Assembly (NCBI GenBank): GCA_030949945.1
Contig: JAUZRZ010000025.1
Coordinates: forward strand, 62,001-126,000
Origin: Sulfurimonas sp.
GTDB lineage: Bacteria > Campylobacterota > Campylobacteria > Campylobacterales > Sulfurimonadaceae
Reading direction: 5' to 3'
Length of the DNA: 64,000 nt
Each line of letters starts with the position of its first letter. Positions within the stretch are counted from its first letter, which is position 1. Made by a program: the position numbers and the translations under genes. Shown here piece by piece: positions 5,360-23,883 of the stretch. The notes under the pieces are model-generated. The model was not told where the DNA came from. It saw nothing but the letters and a program-made list of their open reading frames with translations, and did no database searches.

Positions 5360-6363
5360 TGAGATATGTTGCTATTTTCATTCTATTTATATCCATACTC
5401 CAAGGAGCACAAACATTGAAAATAGCAACATATAATGTAGAAAATCTTTTTGACTTACAAAGAAGTGGACATGAGTACAAAGAGTATATACCTAACTCCT
5501 ATTCTAAGTGGAATCAAAAAAACTATGCAATTAAATTAAAAAATATAGCAAAAGTTATTTATGAAATAGATGCCGATATTATTGCACTCCAAGAGATTGA
5601 ATCCATAACTGCACTCAAAGATTTAAGGTTTGAGCTAAAAAGACTAGGTCTATATTACAGGTACTATAAAATTGCTAACTATAAGCAGACAACTATCAAA
5701 GTAGCACTACTGAGTAAAATTCCTTTTGTATATACTCATGAAATTGCCGTCAAAGCATCTTATAAATATCGAAATATTTTAGAAGCTAAGTTTATAGTAA
5801 ACAATCAAGAATTTTTTGTTTTAGTAAATCACTGGAAATCAAAGGCTGGTCCAGAGAGTATGAGAATTGTTTCAGCAAAAAAAGTCCTCAAACGCATGCA
5901 AGAACTCGGTTTAGATAAAAATATAATTGTTCTAGGAGATTTTAATTCTCACTATGAAGAGTATATACTCTTTAAAAGAAAAAGAAAACATAATGATACA
6001 GATGGAAAAACAGGTATAAACCATATACTAAACACGATAGAGCATACTAAAATAGCTGCAAAAACAGACCTACCTTATGGAGAATTTTATAATCTCTGGT
6101 ATGATATAGATAAAGAAAACAGATACTCTTATATCTATAGAGGGAAAAAGGAAGCCTTAGACAACATACTAATATCACCATCTCTTTTAAATAGATCAGG
6201 AATAGAGTATAAAAGTAGCAGTATTCATGCATATAAACAAAAGTATCTTTTTAATGGTAAGAGTATAAATAGATGGAAAATGAGCCGTAAAAGACCTCGT
6301 ACACATAAAGGAAAAGGATATTCAGATCATTTAGCTGTTATAGCAGAGTTCCTTGTCCACTAA
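5359..6363 (+). CDS. Endonuclease/exonuclease/phosphatase family protein, exported
   Basis: A 334-residue protein of the DNase I-like fold. Visible family motifs are KIATYNVENLFD, LQEIES, NHWKSK, LGDFNSH and YSDHLAV, which hold the metal and phosphate ligands. The first 17 or so residues (MRYVAIFILFISILQGA) form a signal peptide, so it acts in the periplasm or outside. GTG start at 5359 overlaps the stop of the peptidase gene by one base, so the two are probably co-transcribed. Its 3' end overlaps the convergent ung gene by 26 bp. The substrate is not known. Extracellular nuclease or phosphodiesterase are both possible. Confidence 0.83.
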   Translation: MRYVAIFILFISILQGAQTLKIATYNVENLFDLQRSGHEYKEYIPNSYSKWNQKNYAIKLKNIAKVIYEIDADIIALQEIESITALKDLRFELKRLGLYYRYYKIANYKQTTIKVALLSKIPFVYTHEIAVKASYKYRNILEAKFIVNNQEFFVLVNHWKSKAGPESMRIVSAKKVLKRMQELGLDKNIIVLGDFNSHYEEYILFKRKRKHNDTDGKTGINHILNTIEHTKIAAKTDLPYGEFYNLWYDIDKENRYSYIYRGKKEALDNILISPSLLNRSGIEYKSSSIHAYKQKYLFNGKSINRWKMSRKRPRTHKGKGYSDHLAVIAEFLVH

Positions 6364-23017: not shown

Positions 23018-23288
23018 TAAGTGCCTGACAAGAATAAATGCCATAATTCAATGAGAAAAGAAGCTATAATATGTGAGGCAAAAAGACGCAGGAGCTACTA
23101 GTAGCTTCAAGTATTTTTAACGAAGCAGATTGTAGCTTCTTGTCTCACCCGTAGGGGCAATCTTTTAAAAGGCTTACCTTCTGTGTTAAACTTCATTCAA
23201 TAATACTAGTATCGCCAAATAAAGTTTGCCTTGAATCTAAACCTTTTAAAGATTGTTGAATATGACATTTATTCTTGTCAGGCACTTA
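23018..23288 (+). repeat. 271-bp noncoding element with 23-bp perfect terminal inverted repeats (MITE-like)
   Basis: The left arm 23018-23040 and right arm 23266-23288 are perfect inverted copies over 23 bp (core GTGCCTGACAAGAATAAATG). The interior has further nested pairings: CAATCTTTTAAAAGG near 23158 with CCTTTTAAAGATTG near 23242, the palindrome ATACTAGTAT, and GTGAGGCAAAAAG with CTTCTTGTCTCAC, which would enclose a GAGCTACTAGTAGCTTC hairpin. A TATAAT at about 23066-23071 precedes the last. No protein frame is present. The right arm overlaps the last codons and stop of the minus-strand gene ending at 23278. It fits a non-autonomous transposon relic or a structured intergenic RNA element. 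No transposase is nearby. Confidence 0.7.
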
Positions 23289-23883
23289 GCTCATTTACTT
23301 CTACAACTACTTCTATGTTTTCAAAAATTCTTTGTACTCTCTCTTGCCAAAGTTCACCAAACTCTTTAACATCAGTATCTGTTGCATCCCCTGAACTTAA
23401 CTTTTTCATAAGTTTCATCATTTTTGGATTTGCTTTTATTGGCTCTGGATTATAAGTCACATCAACACTTTTAGAATTATCCAATCGTGTAAAACGAGCT
23501 GAAGATTGTATATCTGCACTGAAATACATTAAAGAGTGACGTGCAAACTGTCCCTGCAGTCCTTTAAAACCACTCTTATCTGTAGCACCAGTAATCTGTG
23601 CTATAACATTTGATATAACACCAGCTACACCATCTTCTAATGCCTCTTCAAACTCTACTTTTATATTACCTCTCACTGCCCTCTCATTTGGATAAAGCAC
23701 CTTTAATGCTTCATTCGTGATGATGTATGCACCTGCTACTGTAGGACAAGAGTGTCCCGCTGATTTTACTATTTCTAAATAAGAAAACTCATATTCACCC
23801 ATAAAAAATGCACCTAAAACCTGAGAGAGAGGGTCTTTTACTTTTATGGTCTCTATTGTGTCAAAAAAACTTGGGTACTTCAT
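23278..23883 (-). CDS. FmdE-like protein (GHxCP motif), function unknown
   Basis: 201 residues, soluble. The segment KSAGHSCPTVAGAYIITNEAL resembles the N-terminal GHxCPg motif of FmdE-type (molybdenum formylmethanofuran dehydrogenase operon) proteins, whose Cys and His bind metal. The rest (RGNIKVEFEEALEDGVAGVISNVI) fits such a fold loosely. There is no methanogenesis context, so the function is unknown and the family call is tentative. Its last codons (LSA and stop) are read from the terminal inverted repeat of the adjacent 271-bp element, which suggests the element inserted into or next to the original 3' end. Its start overlaps the xseA stop by one base. Confidence 0.6.
   Translation of the reverse strand: MKYPSFFDTIETIKVKDPLSQVLGAFFMGEYEFSYLEIVKSAGHSCPTVAGAYIITNEALKVLYPNERAVRGNIKVEFEEALEDGVAGVISNVIAQITGATDKSGFKGLQGQFARHSLMYFSADIQSSARFTRLDNSKSVDVTYNPEPIKANPKMMKLMKKLSSGDATDTDVKEFGELWQERVQRIFENIEVVVEVNELSA

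Follow-up and report, generated by a model that had tools for sequence, protein, structure and literature searches.

A 271-bp palindromic element in Sulfurimonas sp. interpreted as an IS630-type MITE of a candidate fold-conserved class in Campylobacterota

What is the 271-bp palindromic sequence lying between the convergent genes sppA and a minus-strand gene (23278-23883) in Sulfurimonas sp., and why is it so extensively self-paired? The preliminary description of the window, the whole 64-kb stretch of DNA analysed here, had offered a non-autonomous mobile element, a two-way terminator or a structured RNA. From sequence comparisons, we estimate with a probability of roughly 0.88 that it is a MITE of the IS630 type, moved by such a transposase, which belongs to a fold-conserved class of about 270 bp; for the fold itself, we infer a role.

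Layout and fold of the window element

The element is bounded by terminal inverted repeats (TIRs) at 23018-23045 (plus strand) and 23261-23288 (minus strand), which are 96% identical over 28 nt. Within them, the arms 23018-23040 and 23266-23288 match perfectly over 23 bp, the extent that had been reported before. This is the longest perfect inverted repeat of the window (span under 414), the runner-up having 17 bp. The first TA of the left TIR and the last TA of the right TIR are the two copies of a target duplication, and reconstruction of the empty site (below) leaves 267 bp (23020-23286) as the inserted element proper.

Inside the TIRs, two long stems enclose two hairpin modules. The outer stem A pairs 23052-23073 with 23126-23147 around module A (23074-23125, plus strand), which reads (T)GAGGC, a bulged hairpin and AACGAAG. 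The outer stem B pairs 23164-23181 with 23233-23250 around module B (23181-23233), which is inverted: CAAGGC is found on the minus strand and the AACG end is degenerate, reading AACACAG. The loop letters of the two modules are thus GAGGC/AACGAAG and CAAGGC/AACACAG. A central mini-hairpin, CCC-GTA-GGG, occupies 23148-23156, and a tip hairpin is found at 23188-23227. With two long stems and a tip hairpin, the earlier claim of at least three further interior pairings is borne out. The same holds for the claim that no protein is encoded, as no ORF of 80 aa is found within the element.

The predicted fold is very strong. The strand of the window element folds at -100.2 kcal/mol compared to -52.8 +/- 3.9 for shuffled sequences (z = -12.2), and a similar value is obtained under DNA parameters (z = -11.4). 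The TATAAT that had been pointed out in front of a folded segment is indeed present at 23065-23070 but is not conserved in the alignment of the other copies. It is therefore probably a chance occurrence, and we reject it as a promoter.

Insertion site, copies and related transposon ends

When the sequences flanking the element are joined with a single TA, they align with the relatives and restore a gene end ...VNEL*, the relatives having ...VSEL* or ...VNEL* at this end. Since the joined flanks match the empty site of the relatives, the TA was duplicated on insertion. In the window, the right TIR provides AGT GCC TGA to the minus-strand gene, so that the stop codon is shifted into the TIR and the C-terminus now reads ...VNELSA*, with two added residues; the last codons and stop had been attributed to the right arm from the start. 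None of the 29 relatives checked carries the element at this site, and some relatives have a small terminator-like repeat there.

The element is also repeated elsewhere. The host genome (2.33 Mb, 90 contigs) contains three full copies including the one in the window, the other two being 96% and 94% identical to it. It further contains one copy in which the body is flanked by other TIRs and a sister family with one hairpin module in common. Matches to the element are found in 18 of 60 relatives, nearly all of the same genus, and arms of class I are present in about a quarter of the genomes of the genus (33/135), with no match for a reversed control pattern. The preliminary description had stated that presence at the same place in all relatives, with drifting arms and no other copies, would speak against a mobile element; we find the opposite for the place and for the copies, together with the empty sites and additional copies it had proposed to look for.

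Copies are rarely placed between convergent genes. For the 29 copies with enough flanking sequence, 4 are found in this setting, 19 lie between tandem genes and 6 between divergent genes. No open frame is disrupted by any of these copies, and for many of them the end of a gene is only a few bases away.

The copies vary in their state of preservation. In one genome (G125:C24:7248-7700) the element has grown to 453 bp, with another hairpin-rich repeat inserted in its second module. At the other extreme, palindromes of 34-66 bp, which run from TIR to TIR with the whole body deleted, are found in several genomes, including a 34-bp one in the host genome (G000:C63:4982-5015) and others at G083:C1:1061657-1061703, G127:C44:3292-3350 and G105:C236:16948-16997. 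These are perhaps hairpin deletions or mini-elements.

We also found transposons with similar ends, answering the earlier call for a transposase with the same ends with near rather than exact matches. On contig C66 of the host genome there is a 1068-bp IS630 element whose TIR agrees with the window arm in 19 of 23 positions, and the following TGTCATATTC is also common to both. Likewise, several elements with the ends TAAGTGCCTAACCAAAATTAATG and a length of about 1066-1071 bp are present in another genome (G153); their ends agree with the window arm in 19/23 positions and continue with TGTCATATTC. These elements encode HTH and DDE_3 domains and are called IS630 by NCBIfam. Within the genus, IS630 fragments in three more genomes (G061, G139 and G018) have TIRs matching the arm at up to 21 of 23 positions. 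One class-II copy of the MITE immediately adjoins a fragment of an IS630 transposase gene and seems to lie within it (G061:C119:1-250).

Taken together, the copies, the empty site and the matching transposon ends lead us to a MITE of the IS630 type, which was the first of the earlier options. The transposase of the IS630 elements with near-matching ends would, judging from these ends, be the one that moves the window element. Nonetheless, some points weigh against the IS630 account: every complete IS630 copy read with matching ends is frameshifted (in draft genomes, where an intact copy may be missed), the ends match nearly but not exactly, and the movement itself is deduced from sequence. The frameshifts, one or more in each copy, are often located at homopolymer runs; decay, assembly error and programmed frameshifting are all candidate causes.

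Known systems provide precedents for such an origin. IS630/Tc1 elements are excised and then inserted at TA, which is duplicated (PMC2170065). ISY100 and other IS630/Tc1-mariner elements resemble the window element in their TA target duplication and their TIRs of about 24 bp but encode their own transposase with HTH and DDE domains, whereas the window element encodes nothing (PMC2170065). RUP of Streptococcus pneumoniae, associated with IS630-Spn1, is a precedent for an IS630-type MITE: it is short, without genes, inserted at TA and present in many copies mostly between genes, with IS630-like TIRs (PMC2229807, PMC3049150). It has been described as tightly folded with its TIRs paired (PMC2229807, PMC3049150) and, compared by its published description, measures 107 bp instead of 271 bp. 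Correia/NEMIS, Nezha, ERIC and QMITE are also bacterial MITEs with TIRs, several with TA-type ends, whose transcripts are predicted to form long hairpins (PMC10969869, PMC2229807); they differ from the window element in host, length and sequence, the sequences having been compared through Rfam.

A different origin would be that of a REP/BIME-type element mobilised by a tyrosine transposase of the Y1 (RAYT) type. REP/RAYT and the GTAG- or CGTC-tagged palindromes are, like the window element, palindromic intergenic repeats, and they are reported from Sulfurovum too (PMC3733652). Y1 genes are present in the host genome and in the genus, some with inverted ends of their own or with GTGCCTGAC repeat clusters. 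However, the known palindromes are units of 20-40 bp, either linked to Y1 transposases or without any linked transposase (PMC3733652), and have no association with the window arms; we found no Y1 locus with TAAGTGCCTGAC ends on both sides, and the TA duplication together with the DDE_3 elements with matching ends points to IS630. For some Y1 genes of Sulfurimonas these inverted ends are perfect; like the GTGCCTGAC clusters, they are unrelated to the window element. Because the Y1 loci of the genus bear other ends, we reject a RAYT/REP origin, which we regard as very improbable.

Covariation, strand tests and the RNA or terminator reading

The arms are matched within each copy and widely different between copies. 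In an alignment of 37 copies, 60 of the 97 pairs have undergone compensatory changes. Covariation alone cannot separate selection from templated repair of the palindrome. Because a structure predicted with RNA energies on one strand biases a plain G+U count to that strand, we used a strand-neutral count of stem substitutions and found 27 G-U compared to 28 A-C columns, that is, no strand preference. This lack of bias fits pairing at the DNA level, or templated repair of the arms, better than an RNA made from one strand, even if the reverse-complement symmetry of the layout weakens the test.

These results bear on the remaining options, in which the element would be a structured RNA or a two-way terminator between sppA and the gene at 23278. 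Its position between convergent genes, its very strong fold and two terminator-like sites on the plus strand, where 0.3 are expected, would fit such a function. Nevertheless, few of the flanked copies share this setting (4/29), the stem substitutions are without strand bias, and relatives have an empty site at this position, in some cases with the small terminator-like repeat. In addition, no family of the Rfam 15 covariance models reaches its gathering score, consistent with the initial impression that no known RNA family is involved. We therefore consider this reading improbable. The structured RNA option receives no positive support from the stems or from Rfam; such an RNA may still be an extra role of the element, and terminator activity a possible side effect.

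A 270-bp layout across Campylobacterota

The module found in both hairpin arms in inverted orientation, CAAGGC - hairpin - AACGAAG, is enriched in the host genome, where the pattern occurs 18 times compared to once for its reversed version. A covariance model of the module, built from 26 sequences, matches in 26 of the 298 genomes of the phylum, from 13 genera. Around 21 of the 30 module matches retrieved, we found TIR-bounded elements of 249-285 bp, a score reached by only 1 of 112 shifted positions in the control of the finder. Overall, five or more families of the phylum are represented in the class.

In 19 representatives the length is 270 +/- 5 bp. In most of them, the module is located at a distance of 53-57 bp from one end, and a CCC-NNN-GGG mini-hairpin is found at 128-132. 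The conserved letters of the module in part reflect the training of the model on these letters, whereas TIRs, length, mini-hairpin and second module did not enter the search. The 19 representatives fall into eight sequence groups without long similarity and with unrelated TIRs, and their predicted folds are nearly superimposable. The window element fits this layout: its length is 271 bp, module A lies at 56 and the mini-hairpin at 130, and module B is located at 55 when counted from the right end. For RUP, we are not aware of any description of two inverted hairpin modules in the interior, of a mini-hairpin or of a layout fixed across families, and neither Rfam nor the open papers that we searched yielded a description of such a class.

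The TIRs of other members resemble those of other DDE_3 elements of the genus (TACCAATCCC and TAAGTACCT). Members with AACTGA ends and the same layout are found in three genomes (G160, G283 and G039), and those of G160 and G283 appear not to be flanked by TA; IS630 may thus not serve the whole class. In two copies with AACTGA ends there is an apparent 5-bp target duplication (TAAAA, TTTAA). These members suggest the use of a transposase other than IS630.

Beyond the phylum, a pattern search of IMG/VR returned only two hairpin modules of unknown host. One IMG/VR contig of unknown host contains a 163-bp element (5830-6080) with a single CAAGGC...AACGCAG module and 19-bp inverted ends. In plasmid and phage collections searched with the element of G042, only a Sulfurovum mangrovi plasmid was found.

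The same length and the same predicted fold in spite of divergent sequences and ends suggest that the fold itself is what is kept. We tentatively propose a class defined by its fold instead of its sequence: a strictly 270-bp double-hairpin body, functional as DNA, that would be carried by many types of ends across Campylobacterota, the ends changing and the layout remaining. For an exchange of bodies between TIR classes, which we also considered, the tree speaks neither way: few changes are required on it, and its resolution is poor.

Alternatively, the element could be an ordinary MITE with a functionless interior, in which the hairpins are a by-product, each inverted half serves to correct the other as the DNA is replicated, and the layout goes back to a single ancestral MITE that was passed on by descent and horizontal transfer. 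The stems without strand preference are compatible with this scenario, as is the TIR class, which mostly follows the tree of the bodies. So is the conservation of the body in the Sulfurimonas family, where conservation is not higher at unpaired than at paired positions (0.78 vs 0.82); for the same reason we reject loop conservation as proof of function. Yet passive, decaying DNA would be expected to gain and lose length, whereas length and landmarks are fixed across the eight diverged groups. We see this scenario as unlikely, and such passive maintenance of a palindrome from a common ancestor as the main rival on how the fold is kept.

For an IS630-type MITE of the proposed class, the following course can be imagined. 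By analogy with ISY100 (PMC2170065), an IS630-type transposase would bind the TIRs, cut the element out and insert it at a TA, which is duplicated in the process. The near-complete self-pairing would act at the DNA level, a hairpin or cruciform bringing both ends together. One arm would template the repair of the other, so that both would stay matched even as they drift together, and the self-pairing would allow many types of transposases to carry the same body. Such a DNA hairpin or cruciform, pairing the ends and repairing the arms, is the account of fold upkeep that we infer and prefer.

MITEs are usually viewed as passive leftovers of insertion sequences. If it is true that length and fold stay fixed while ends and sequence change completely, the interior would have to do something, for example pair the ends, recruit a host factor or help the element to escape hairpin removal. 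A class of elements kept by their fold would also offer a way to study how non-autonomous elements change from one transposase to another. In genome annotation, the class explains many unannotated intergenic repeats in Sulfurimonas and its relatives, as well as altered C-termini such as that of the gene in the window.
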